Assembly (NCBI RefSeq): GCF_030864355.1
Contig: NC_083396.1
Location: 2,232,001 to 2,296,000 of the forward strand
Reading direction: 5' to 3'
DNA length: 64,000 nucleotides
Source of the DNA: Cutaneotrichosporon cavernicola
Lineage: Eukaryota > Basidiomycota > Tremellomycetes > Trichosporonales > Trichosporonaceae
Positions 9,238 through 62,781 of the stretch are shown piece by piece (the stretch's first letter is position 1; each line of letters starts with the position of its first letter). Made by a program: the position numbers and the translations under genes. The notes under the pieces were generated by a model. That model was given only the letters and a program-made list of their open reading frames with translations, did no database searches and had not been told where the DNA came from.

Positions 9238-11116
9238 ATGCTCCTCTCCGATTTAGTCATATCGAAACGCGGGCCGCTGGCCAAGATCTGGCTGAGCGCG
9301 CATCACGAGCGCAAGCTCACAAAGCAGCAGACAATTGGTATCGACATTGAGGACAGTTGCGGTGCGTGTCTCTTCCGTCACTCTGCTTGACTGACATATA
9401 GAGGCGATCCTGGGCACACCGGATGACTACCCTATCGCACTCCGGATCAGTGGGCAGCTCATGCTCGGCGTCACCCGCATTTACGGTCGACAGGCCCAGT
9501 ACCTCCTCGAAGACTGCCGTGACACGCGTGAGAGAATCACGGCCTTCCTACCTGGTCTTGTCGATCTGCCAGAGGACCAGATGCGCGCGCCCAACGCCGC
9601 TATCACCCTTCCCCGATTGTCGGACGCAACGATGGCCGCCGGCACTATGGACCTCTGGGACTGGAGTGGGTTCGTCTACGAGCCCACCGGAATGTACACT
9701 GCGCCGCTCACGAGGACCAACCTCCCCGCAACGCGCGAGTACGGCGCGTTCAACTTCGGTCGACCGCGCACTCTGAGCATCTACGGCGAGTCAAGGAGTG
9801 CGTCGCTTGAGGCAGACGTCACGAGTAAGCTGGATAGTAACGAAGTGTTCGCTCCGATGGAACTGGCCATTGATACCTTGGACTTTGACGTGAGCATGGA
9901 GGTCGGGCGCGACGGACAAGACCACAGGCGGCGATCCTCCCCGACCCATCTCCCAGAGCCAGGCGAGCGCATGGACGTTGACCTCGACTTTAGCTTGGGT
10001 ACTATCGACCTCGAGCTCGAGGAACTCCCGCCGTTAATAGAGCACCGATCGTCCTCGCCCGCATCCTCGGCACTCACAACGCCGCCGCCCGAGTCTCCAA
10101 CACCCATTCCCGTATCCCCCGGCACCGCTAAGCGCCTCGCTGCCATCGCCAATAGAGGTAAACGGGTGCGCGTACTGCGGCCAGACCACGAGCTCGAACT
10201 CCCCGACCAGGCGTTCTCGGACGAGGCTGCGCAGGGACACCAAGAGGTGCCATTGTACCTCCCAAACGACGCGACCGCACATGCGAGAGCGGCCGCGGCC
10301 GATTCAGACAATTTCATCCCCATCTACCGGGAGGATGGAGAGCGCTTTATCATGGCCGGTCCCAGTTATCTTCCGCCAGCGCTGGAGGGGCTTTTCACGT
10401 TCCCCCTGCACCATCTCCGTCGTAGGAGAGAGGAGGGGCCAGAGGGAGGGAGGGAAGAGTCGCCGAAATATCCACGCCTGGAGTCGGAGGAGTTTGACAT
10501 TGAGGTCGGACGCAGGCGCAGCCACACACGAACACCGGCTATGCCGAGCATGATCGGGGACATTGGCCTCGAGCCTCTCGACGTCGACCTGAGTATACTT
10601 GGGGGAGACACCTTCGGTCTGCCCGAGTATCACCCCGACGTGACGTTTGGAACTCCTCAAAGCCGGATCTCGCGACGCCCGTCCCTGGCCCCAAGCCGCG
10701 CCGAGAGCATCGCTCGCGCCGTGCAGGAGCACGAGACTGAGGGTCCTCCACTTGCCATCTTCGATGGCGGCGAGAGCGCCCAGGGATCACAGTTTGGCAA
10801 GGACACGGGCGGGTTCAGCAAGACGACCGGCATGGCGATGGGCGTGCTCCGCCGCGAGATTGAGGCGATCGAGTCAACACTGGGCGAAGGAGAGGGCGTG
10901 TCATTCACCAGAGTTGCTAGAGGGGCGACCAAGCGCGGGGCATCACAGTTCTTCTTCGAGCTCCTTGTGCTAGGGACGCGGGATGCCGTGGGCTTGAAGC
11001 AGGAGAGGCCATATGGCGACATCGAGGTCGTTCCTAGGCCAAAACTGTGGGAGACAGGGGCGAGGGGAACAGTAGTTGCGTCGCCGTCAGTGTCGGAGCC
11101 AGTGTCGGAGGTATAG
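9238..11116 (+). CDS. RAD21: Mitotic cohesin kleisin Rad21/Scc1
   Basis: Two exons (9238-9361 and 9402-11116), 612 residues. Rad21 bridges the Smc1 and Smc3 heads of cohesin and is cut by separase at anaphase. The N-terminal Rad21_Rec8_N domain is clear: [20 protein letters not shown], then [24 protein letters not shown] and PGLVDLP. The middle is acidic and low in order, as usual for kleisins. The C-terminal winged helix reads [18 protein letters not shown] followed by [11 protein letters not shown]-rich stretches in the middle could hold separase sites (E-x-x-R), but I cannot single one out. The paralogue REC8 starts about 8 kb downstream on the other strand. The full-length N- and C-terminal match to the Rad21 type makes the mitotic assignment strong. 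Confidence 0.92.
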
Positions 11117-35718: not shown

Positions 35719-36378
35719 ATGGGTGACGACCGCCAGAACACACCATCGCCAACGTCTACGGCGGCCTAGACAAATCGCTTGATGATTGAGAGGTTGAAAT
35801 GGTGGTTCTGACTCTGCAGGACGGCAGTGCTCTACCGCCAGCTGCAGATCGAAACGAGCCAGCTGCCCGCTCCTGTCGCAGAGAAGCCGGTGTGGTTCGA
35901 TGCAGCCTTCGATGCCCGATTCACGCGGACTGTTCAGCCGCGACTAGACGCGAATAAAACCCCCTTCGTCCGCCTGGACCGTGGCATGCGCCAACTTCTT
36001 ATATTATCGTGCCCTAGAGTGAGTCACATCATCATACATCCGTGTCGCTTGAAGGTGGCTAACCGTAGCGAGCGCGTGGGAGCTGCGCGGGCAGCCAATT
36101 TGAACGCCCATTATTAAGAACCGCTCTCCGCTCTACCTAAGGCCCCTCAAGAACCTGCCAACACTTTGCTCAACAGTCCCCTCCCAAACCTCATTTACCC
36201 AGAGAGCTTCTCCGCTTCCAGTTACAGTCTGGGCATCATGAAGGGCAAGTCTGGCTCCTGACACGTAGCGCGGGAGGTTGATGCTCTCCTCGAGTTTTAC
36301 AACCTCGAGGTTGAAGGGTCACTAGACCAGCGGAGGCTTCGCCTGGCCGCTCACATTGGGCTGGTCCGTCCTGGCTGA
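35719..36378 (+). pseudogene. Decayed copy of the four-exon small-protein family
   Basis: The locus aligns exon by exon with the intact gene at 61703-62344. Exon 1 begins MGD and reaches NVYGGLDKSL, against AEVYDALAESL, but only after a frameshift near 35742. The intron 1 donor reads TT instead of GT, yet CTGAC...CTGCAG at the acceptor is kept. Exon 2 (35820-36018) has EKPVWFDAAFDARFTRTVQP, against the APAWFVAAQAQT block. Exon 3 (from 36069) has an in-frame TAA after LNAHY, then EPANTLLNSPLP against EPADTALAAPLP. The intron 3 donor is GC and the intron is shrunk to 24 nt. Exon 4 reads EVDALLEFYNLEVEGSLDQR, against QVDALLVAYSLPTIGTLEAR, and ends IGLVRPG. Several independent lesions make it a pseudogene. 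A strongly altered but spliced gene is the alternative. Confidence 0.75.
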
Positions 36379-59636: not shown

Positions 59637-61308
59637 CTAATGGCCGTTGGTTTGTGAGTGGCCGTTGGCGTGGCTGTGGCCGTTGGGTGCGCCGAGCTTG
59701 CGGTCCTGGCGCTCGGACTCCCGCGCGGCCTCGCGCCGCTCAATCTCGTCGTCGAGGACGAGCGCACGGGCCCAAAGCGCCTCCGTGAGCTCCGCTTCAG
59801 GATGTGAGAGGGCGAGGAGGCTGGTGTCAGTTCTCATCAACAACTCTTTTACGAGTTAGACTCACCGGGCGATTTTCATGCGCCGCTTGAGGCGACCTTC
59901 TGCGTCGTCGGTACCGCGACCAGCTCGACGCTCCTCCACAAAAAGGTCCTGAATCGCCGTGGCAACAGCTTCGGGGATCGTCAGCGCCGCGGCGTGCTCT
60001 GCGCCTCCGTGCTCGGCCAGGTACTGCCTGAAGGCCGTGAGCTGCTCCTCGCTGGCCGCCTCAGCCGACTCGGTGAGGGAAACGGGGAGCACGGCGTCGC
60101 AAGGAAGGAGGCTCTTGCCTTCGCCGCTGACGACTGCGCGGAGCGCGCACTCAATCCGCACGCCGTCCATGTACGGATACTCGTAGTTGACGGCCTGGTG
60201 TTCCACTGCATCCCTGAGGGCTTGGAGGTTACGCAGTGCCACCTCGCTGAGCGCGCCACCGGCGCCCAATCCGTCTTCGTCGACGAGGAGGAGGGTACCG
60301 GGCGCTAGCTGGAGCATCCCAGGAGCAAGGGAGGCTCCGTCACTCTTCGGCCGGAATCGCTCGGCATGCAGCAGGGGCAAAGTGAGGGGGATGTGTATGG
60401 CTGCCGGCGCGAGGGTTGCTAACCGGGAATGAAGGGGATCGGACGATGGTCGCGGGCGCACAAGGTTAAGCGCAAACGTGCCCAGCGGGGCGTGGCCCGC
60501 CGGGCGCACGGCTGGAGAGGCTAGGAGTGATAGGAGGAGTAGTTCGGCGGCGTGTTCGTCGGGCGGAGAGAACGCGCTGGCAAGGTAGGCGAGGAGGTCA
60601 GCACGCACAGCAGAGGAGGAGGGCCGCGGCGCATTCCCGATCGGAGTTAGTGTAAGCGCGTGGATCGCTGGCGCGAGGGCGGGCTCGTCGTCATCGAGCG
60701 ACGTGGGCATCGGAGCGGCTGAGACGAGTCCGACGACAGCATATGTCGATGCAGGGGATGGAGAGAAGTCGTCGTACACCTTCAGCAGGGCGCCGGTATA
60801 CTCTGTCCCCTTGGCTGTGGGGTGTTTGTCCTTGATCACGGAATGGTTGGGTTCCAGAGACAGACCAGAAAGAGCCGAAGAGAGCTCTCCAGGAGCGTGC
60901 CTCACCCATTCTTGCTCGCCTGGAATCCTGGAGTTAGATTGGAGAGAACGGTAGGTTCACTCGACAGCCCATCCGACCCAGCGCTCGCGCAGCTGGCTCC
61001 AGTCATTTGCGTCGGCGTTAGGAGGAAGGTACACCTCCGCAGGGTATCCAGTGTCCTGGAGGAGGGCGCGAAAGCGGACAAGCGTGAGCGGCCGCGAGTC
61101 GTTGCTGAATGCGGGGATCTGCGTGAGAGGTATGCCAAAGACCCAAGCTCACCGTCTCTGGGCGTTGAAGGGCTTCCTGGACTTGTGTGAGGAGGGCGGC
61201 CTGCTGCTCGGGCGTTACTGCTGTCAGCTAAAACAGCAGTCAGTGCAGCTCACCGTCACCATCCGTCTCGCGGAGAGTTATCCTGATGATGTCGTCTACT
61301 GGGAGCAT
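59637..61308 (-). CDS. MCMBP: Mini-chromosome maintenance complex-binding protein
   Basis: Five exons: 61254-61308, 61153-61220, 60961-61118, 59866-60927 and 59637-59820, 508 residues. MCMBP binds MCM3-7 and helps assemble and unload the replicative helicase. The N-terminus reads DDIIRITLRETDGD, TPEQQAALLTQVQEALQ, IPAFSNDSRPLTLVRFRALL, QDTGYPAEVYLPPNA and WSQLRERWVGWAVEIPGEQE, matching the family. In the middle HALTLTPIGN, LLLSLLASPAVRPAG and LGTFALNLVRP are seen, with GMLQLAPGTLLLVDEDGLGA and VALRNLQALRDAVEHQAVNY EYPYMDGVRIEC later. The tail is a charged helix and NGHSHANGHSQTNGH. The shift from long ORF to upstream small exons follows GTGAGC/GTGAAC donors. A palindromic MCB-type element lies 50 bp upstream. 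Confidence 0.88.
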
Positions 61309-61702: not shown

Positions 61703-62344
61703 ATGGGCGACCAAAGCCGTACCAAGGCCGAGGTTTATGATGCGCTTGCCGAATCTCTCAGCGGGTGAGAAGGAGAAAAGATCGTGATCATTGGCAGTGT
61801 GCGCAAGAGCATGCTCGAACTCTCGAGCATAGCAAGCAAGGATGACGTGCTGCCGGCGCAGGGCGCACCGGCGTGGTTTGTCGCGGCCCAGGCGCAGACG
61901 GCGGCGCGCATGGACGCCATGCAGGTCGCGATCAACGAACGTTTCAATCAGCAGGACCGTGTCTTGCGCCGCATCCTCATCCATCAGCGTTACGAGTGCG
62001 TCCACATCTCTTAATCATGCTGACTCCAGCGAAATCGTGCGCTCTGCCCGATACTTGAATGCGCCGACGGGTTACCACCACCTGCTCACCGGCATTCCAA
62101 CCATTGCTGTCGAGCCTGCGGACACAGCCCTCGCGGCCCCGCTCCCGGAGTTCACAGTCCCGGCGGGCTTTCCTAACACTGTTGACGTGTTGTGCAACAT
62201 GCGGGGTAAGTCTGTCATCCTGTATCGGGCTGACATGCAGCGGCCCAGGTAGACGCTCTTCTCGTCGCCTACTCGCTCCCCACCATCGGTACCCTCGAAG
62301 CCCGCCGCTCTCGCCTGAAGCAATTCATTGGGCTAATTGAATAG
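61703..62344 (+). CDS. Four-exon small protein of unrecognised family
   Basis: Exons 61703-61764, 61798-61995, 62030-62205 and 62241-62344, all with clean GT-AG introns of 33-35 nt, give 179 residues. I do not recognise the family. Exon 1 is a short helix (AEVYDALAESLSG). Exon 2 has APAWFVAAQAQTAARMDAMQ and continues as an amphipathic coiled coil (INERFNQQDRVLRRILIHQR). Exon 3 has RSARYLNAPTGYHHLLTGIP and then EPADTALAAPLPEF with FPNTVDVL. Exon 4 has QVDALLVAYSLPTIGTLEAR and ends RLKQFIGLIE. No signal peptide or membrane helix is seen. Two decayed copies in the same window (35719-36378 and about 62552-62781) share exon layout. A lineage-specific, fast-turning family is inferred. Confidence 0.8.
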
Positions 62345-62477
62345 AGGGGGATAACAGTTTGTGTTACCTGATATCATTGTTTTGTATCATATCATAGGAT
62401 TATAGTATTATGGTTTATGTTGTTGAGAAGCTCAAGTCAAGTGCGTCAACATGTGCAACTGTTTCCTCTTTCCCCTC

Positions 62478-62549
62478 ATTCCCTACATTCATCTCATTCA
62501 TCTCATTCATCTCATATCGTACACGCACACGCACACGCACACGCACACC
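62478..62549 (+). repeat. Microsatellites ATTCATCTC and ACACGC
   Basis: Three to four copies of a CATTCATCT-type 9-mer (62486-62515) are followed by four copies of ACACGC (62521-62544). The tract lies exactly between the intact family gene and its truncated neighbour and may mark the duplication junction. Confidence 0.75.
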
Positions 62550-62551
62550 GT

Positions 62552-62781
62552 GACAATTGGAGACGAGCCGCCCATTGCCCCGACAGTAGAATCACACTGC
62601 GTGAGAGGGAGGAAGGATTGTGCTGACTGGCAGAGACATGGAGAAATATGATCAACTCGCGACGCTGACCGACGCCAATGTCGTCTCCAGCGTTACAAAC
62701 CAAAGCCCGCCTGCCTGGTTCGTCACCGCGCATGGCGAGACCATCGAACGCCTTGAGCAGTACATCGACCTCGTTCGCTGA
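62552..62781 (+). pseudogene. Truncated tandem copy of the small-protein family
   Basis: The 5' part reads IGDEPPIAPTVESHC, against MGDQ...ALAESLSG of the intact gene, so the start ATG is now ATT. A 33-nt intron (about 62598-62630) has the same length as intron 1 of the intact gene and is alike through most of its bases, from GTGAG to TGGCAG. Exon 2 keeps SPPAWFVTAHGETIERLEQY against the APAWFVAAQAQTAARMDAM block and ends at a TGA (62779). Exons 3 and 4 are absent. Read alone it gives a 47-codon ORF from 62638. It is most likely a decayed tandem duplicate; a short translated peptide cannot be excluded. Confidence 0.65.

Follow-up and report, generated by a model that had tools for sequence, protein, structure and literature searches.

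A four-exon gene of Cutaneotrichosporon cavernicola as a divergent candidate relative of the Mug135_C/tdk superfamily

The tdk genes of fission yeast are single-gene toxin-antidote killer meiotic drivers, and the most conserved part of their proteins is the domain IPR013902, which corresponds to Pfam PF08593 (Mug135_C) and is located at residues 269-340 of Tdk1 (PMC12930445). A helix of variable length precedes this domain, and a PP motif marks the linker that connects it to the N-terminal region, where a Z-shaped domain is located (PMC12930445). The genes contain internal repeats, are present in multiple copies, are often pseudogenes, and are enriched near chromosome ends (PMC12930445). A survey of IPR013902 found 478 proteins in 150 species, including 371 proteins in 107 basidiomycete species, and it was argued that fungal IPR013902 proteins may be killer meiotic drivers and that testing outside Schizosaccharomyces is hard (PMC12930445). 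The main text of that paper contains none of the terms Trichosporon, Cryptococcus, Tremellomycetes, SAP domain, or SAP-like. No other paper on the IPR013902 family was recognised among the papers listed in our literature search; PMC1885245 mentions meu23, which is named tdk11 in PMC12930445.

The window analysed here is a stretch of 64,000 nucleotides, C4:2232001-2296000, from the 20.2 Mb genome of C. cavernicola. A first reading of the window, made from the sequence only, had proposed a four-exon gene with introns of 33-35 nt at 61703-62344. This intact gene is real: when spliced, it encodes 179 amino acids identical to the annotated protein CcaverHIS002_0408940 (P0001). Third-position GC is 0.73 in its exons, compared to a GC content of 0.45-0.51 in its introns. 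By eye, a 34 nt first intron is also found in the adjoining gene, which lies from 63073 onward on the + strand and which we take to encode a Sec13-like WD40 protein, so short introns appear to be normal in this part of the genome. The neighbour on the other side (59862-60905, - strand) encodes an MCM-binding protein (Pfam MCM_bind, 127 bits); both are housekeeping neighbours. Simple repeats, CATTCATCT and ACACGC units, are present at 62465-62548 in the 3' flank of the intact gene, and the same window contains a Rad21/Rec8 family cohesin subunit at 9461-11116 on the + strand (Pfam Rad21_Rec8, 54.8 bits). P0001 was found on 4 contigs, apparently as the same protein. Four C. cavernicola strains have been described, with BRAKER gene models built using RNA-seq hints (PMC10568926). 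The coordinates of the parts of the gene and of its copies are listed in Table 1.

Table 1. Features of the intact gene, the decayed paralog, and a possible third copy in the window
Feature	Coordinates	Strand	Evidence
Exon 1 of intact gene CcaverHIS002_0408940	61703..61764	+	Spliced translation equals P0001
Intron 1, 33 nt	61765..61797	+	GT..AG
Exon 2, with P-A-W-F and the greater part of the long helix	61798..61995	+	Spliced translation; helix 46-96 in AlphaFold2 model
Intron 2, 34 nt	61996..62029	+	GT..AG
Exon 3, end of helix, EPADT..PLP linker, and start of C-terminal domain	62030..62205	+	Spliced translation
Intron 3, 35 nt	62206..62240	+	GT..AG
Exon 4, stop codon and core of the C-terminal domain (Mug135_C-like, SAP-like)	62241..62344	+	PF08593 match, fold search
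Decayed paralog with ATG; reading frame broken in exon 1, exon 3 interrupted by TAA at 36115-36117, domain ending at 36375	35719..36378	+	Protein matches; stop-free HIS471 ortholog P0003
47-codon ORF containing PPAWF, perhaps the N-terminal part of a third copy (weak)	62638..62781	+	Profile and reverse search

The sequence-only reading had also reported the same blocks, in the same order, at 35.7 kb, and this held up. The copy is real because a protein from Cutaneotrichosporon sp. HIS471, CspHIS471_0409280 (P0003), matches there at 86% identity in two stretches (P0003 residues 9-64 and 68-158). The order of its blocks equals that of the intact gene, and by eye its introns 2 and 3 are at matching positions. 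The suggested decay of copies was also confirmed: in C. cavernicola, the ATG is out of frame with the similarity block of exon 1, and exon 3 contains a TAA, whereas the corresponding stretch of P0003 is free of stops. The N-terminus of P0003 is unlike the start of the intact gene, and its first exon may be altered or mis-modelled as well. The decayed copy has been given different automatic gene models in different strains, with proteins of 130 and 92 amino acids (P0004 from HIS641 and P0005 from HIS631) that belong to this locus by sequence. Since the strains bearing these models are >99.9% identical (PMC10568926), the differences are annotation artefacts around the broken frame rather than different genes.

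A protein search of 476 candidates gave two proteins at E <= 0.001, P0001 and its HIS471 ortholog, P0002. Genome-wide, C. cavernicola and HIS471 share about 93.4% nucleotide identity (PMC10568926). An 11-residue unit of the ARMDAMQVAIN type is present once in P0001 and three times in P0002, in which the two extra units form a 22-residue insert inside the long helix. Outside this insert, 7 of 179 aligned residues differ between the strains at the intact locus, compared to 19 of 144 at the decayed locus, with the stop being one of the 19 (Fisher p 0.003). When exons 2-4 were considered alone, 6/158 residues were changed at the intact locus, and the comparison again gave a p value of 0.003. These counts support the pattern expected of retained constraint on the intact gene and relaxed constraint on the decayed one.

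Of the repeated copies proposed for the window, what remains is the intact gene, a single decayed gene, and a weak fragment that covers an N-terminal part. Among 1725 ORFs of the window, the 47-codon ORF matched the family profile at E 0.031 and, when used as the query, matched exon 2 of the intact gene at E 0.0064. It could be what is left of the N-terminal part of a third copy, or it could encode a small protein able to pair with the full-length one, and a protein search found it once in the genome. A DNA search of the whole genome with the intact gene found itself alone. Whole-genome protein searches, which detect only rather close relatives and did not pick up the 47-codon ORF with P0001 as query, found no further copy, and P0006, a distant relative described below, had no match in the genome. 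No copy was accepted from a family-profile search of 20 pieces of other DNA of 10 kb each (11 beside the window and 9 at contig ends, about 1% of the genome). Two rows at E <= 1 were obtained with the family profile and six with single proteins. The best of them, L022:8173-8490 (E 0.0096 with P0003 and 0.19 with the family profile), lies within a U2AF35-like gene recognised by eye. By eye, L024 (E 0.14 with P0003) had no supporting blocks; the other rows from these pieces were four at E 0.099-0.93 and the second family-profile row, in L020 (E 0.14). A match from a whole-genome protein search, the C1 locus L006 (E 0.24), was rejected because it resembles repetitive low-complexity sequence by eye.

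Wider relatives were sought in two further protein searches, which gave at least 5 proteins (7996 candidates scored) and at least 6 (7998) and added P0003-P0005 and P0006. P0006 is FRC08_002410, an unnamed protein of Ceratobasidium sp. 394. Because the bait alignment that led to it included synthetic rows, its profile E-value carries no weight. Direct comparison of P0001 and P0006 gave 44% identity over 57 residues of the C-terminal domain (47.8 bits), which by our own estimate would not be conclusive by itself at whole-database scale. Among the matches listed for P0006 against the ORFs of the window, the best two fell on exon 4 of each gene, with E 0.0011 for the intact one and E 0.077 for the decayed one, a result that is only partly independent because P0003 was a row of the bait. 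Like P0001, P0006 has a long helix followed by the common C-terminal domain. Unlike P0001, it lacks the P-x-W-F motif and also matches DUF3294 (PF07957), with 19.6 bits for the whole protein and 20.6 bits for a piece, against a cut-off of 20.6. No protein of C. spelunceum was among the protein-search matches, in a database that may not contain its proteins.

The sequence-only reading could not link the protein to a named domain, and here our results differ. Mug135_C matched residues 136-177 of P0001, spanning exons 3-4, with 18.8 bits (E 0.002) for the whole protein and 20.9 bits (E 4e-4) for residues 96-179. The latter was the best score obtained, and every sequence tested fell below the curated cut-off of 23.8 bits. 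As whole proteins, P0002 scored 16.4 bits, P0006 scored 14.4 bits, and P0003 had no match. Pieces of these proteins gave E 0.0019 for P0002, E 0.013 for P0006, and E 0.13 for P0003, which is not significant alone. All four proteins matched in the same register (profile positions 36/37/44-81), and none of 7 controls (six shuffled and one reversed) matched PF08593. The match is therefore better than chance, is repeated in relatives, and keeps a common register. DUF7722 (PF24847) scored nearly as high over this stretch, and it was the only match, without PF08593, for P0003 as a whole protein and for the pieces of the decayed copy. For P0001 and P0002, PF08593 ranked first, and no Pfam scan of these proteins listed the SAP family. 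Mug135_C-like sequences, both synthetic and real, tend to match PF07957, PF08593, and PF24847 over one stretch, which suggests that these are related Pfam families. Searching the whole genome with PF08593 gave no match and was uninformative, as introns split the domain and no positive control genome responded. PDB sequence matches (mL58, rabphilin-3A, and ultraspiracle, at E 0.65 or more) and the sole NCBIfam match (RecN, E 0.082, for P0006) were rejected. The earlier proposal would have fallen if the protein had clearly matched a known domain of ordinary function; the match found is sub-threshold, and the best-studied proteins with this domain are killer meiotic drivers.

The AlphaFold2 model of P0001 has a mean pLDDT of 61.5. 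In order, P0001 has a short N-terminal part, the P-x-W-F motif, a long helix modelled at residues 46-96 (pLDDT about 57-68), whose length is variable, and a compact C-terminal domain, an arrangement that also fits the tdk proteins. In a fold search, models of the C-terminal domain, consisting of a helix, an extended loop, and a helix, resembled SAP-type folds with low Z scores. The SAP-type domains it resembles include those of 3'hExo, Tho1, Hcc-1, SF3B2, and MKL1; the Rho N-terminal domain, which is SAP-like, was also among the matches. The PF08593 match begins upstream of the SAP-like core.

From these comparisons, and as far as the relationship alone is concerned, the protein of the intact gene is probably related to the Mug135_C (IPR013902) superfamily, though it has diverged strongly. 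A Mug135_C relative could also be an ordinary host gene, for example one encoding a small coiled-coil protein with a role at chromatin or on RNA during growth or meiosis, with the second locus lost as redundant. The few differences between strains, the apparently identical protein on 4 contigs, the housekeeping neighbours, and the SAP-like fold fit such a gene, as does the finding that several tested tdk genes did not drive (PMC12930445). However, the matches listed, although limited by the reach of the searches, come from two close strains and one distant fungus, a patchy distribution that is unusual for a core gene, and the number of repeats shifts between strains. We consider this explanation less likely, though it is the strongest of the alternatives. 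A more doubtful one is that the C-terminal domain belongs to some other SAP-type family that has yet to be described, so that the Mug135_C match reflects only a common SAP-like pattern. This would account for the sub-threshold score, the similar score of DUF7722, and the scatter of fold matches over many SAP-type proteins, but it fits poorly with the first rank of PF08593 for P0001 and P0002, the absence of the Pfam SAP family from those scans, and a match that starts upstream of the SAP-like core. The helix preceding the domain fits Mug135_C/tdk too.

The sequence-only reading had favoured a lineage-specific family that duplicates and decays quickly, as genes for recognition, conflict, or phase variation do. 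The copies are within 27 kb of one another, one being decayed and one fragmentary, and a repeat-number difference exists between strains. Yet no clear DNA similarity was found between the copies (best E 0.11 after self-overlap was set aside), and we conclude from this that they are old paralogs, as judged by sequence, and not a fast-duplicating or phase-variable family. Protein identity is 34-38% between the copies overall (36-38% between P0003 and P0001 over aligned parts), HIS471 has orthologs of both loci, and the DNA, protein, and profile searches yielded no further copies, the last covering about 1% of the genome. A repeat scan of the intact gene found no switch-like repeat inside it, which argues against phase variation. 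A recognition or phase-variable family is thus very improbable, while the suggestion of genetic conflict receives indirect support from the IPR013902/tdk link. Overall, the first interpretation is partly supported.

The best explanation, which we put forward as a candidate with even chances, combines a relative of the Mug135_C/tdk superfamily with a Tdk1-like mechanism. The predicted long helix, whose length differs between strains, would mediate self-association, and the C-terminal domain, a predicted helix-loop-helix of SAP type, would dock the protein on chromatin or a chromatin protein. As in Tdk1, all spores would receive a toxic form, which freshly made protein would neutralise only in carriers; the decayed second locus could be a former driver or resistance allele. 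Active meiotic drive by the intact gene is, taken separately, a rather unlikely candidate activity, and it would presuppose a sexual cycle in C. cavernicola, which counts against it. Bolder still, and improbable in our estimation, is the idea that this basidiomycete yeast carries, in the intact gene, a killer meiotic driver of the single-gene type, roughly half as large as Tdk1. Repeat number, one unit in C. cavernicola and three in HIS471, would then set poison-antidote self-recognition, and the IPR013902-like domain would serve as a SAP-type chromatin anchor. Such an anchor, if true, would explain the disturbed chromosome segregation caused by tdk drivers. That the conserved IPR013902 domain is SAP-like and acts at chromatin is a testable idea offered here. 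The locus pair, one intact and one decayed, is available in two strains with chromosome-level genomes, and the natural difference in repeat number is a candidate specificity switch. A short relative below the cut-off also suggests that InterPro-based surveys undercount the superfamily.

Compared with the tdk family of Schizosaccharomyces (Tdk1, Tdk210, and Tdk203), P0001 is about half as long as Tdk1, and its PF08593 score is under the curated cut-off. Before WF, P0001 (PAWF) and P0003 (PVWF) have PA and PV rather than PP, with PPAWF in the 47-codon ORF and no such motif in P0006. For the N-terminus, where Tdk proteins have the Z-shaped domain, the model of P0001 gives one low-confidence helix (residues 8-34). 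The intact locus, at 2.29 Mb of the 3.10 Mb contig C4, is away from the chromosome end, where tdk genes are enriched. Because the curated cut-off was missed and the Z-shaped domain, PP motif, and drive are at most putative for P0001, the protein is kept outside formal tdk/Mug135_C membership as a divergent candidate. The likenesses to tdk are the sub-threshold PF08593 match in the C-terminal domain, the variable-length helix directly before it (seen in the P0001 model and the 22-residue insert of P0002), the internal repeat of an 11-residue unit in P0001 and P0002, and the occurrence of intact and decayed copies, which number one each here, plus the weak fragment, in searches of limited reach for diverged copies.
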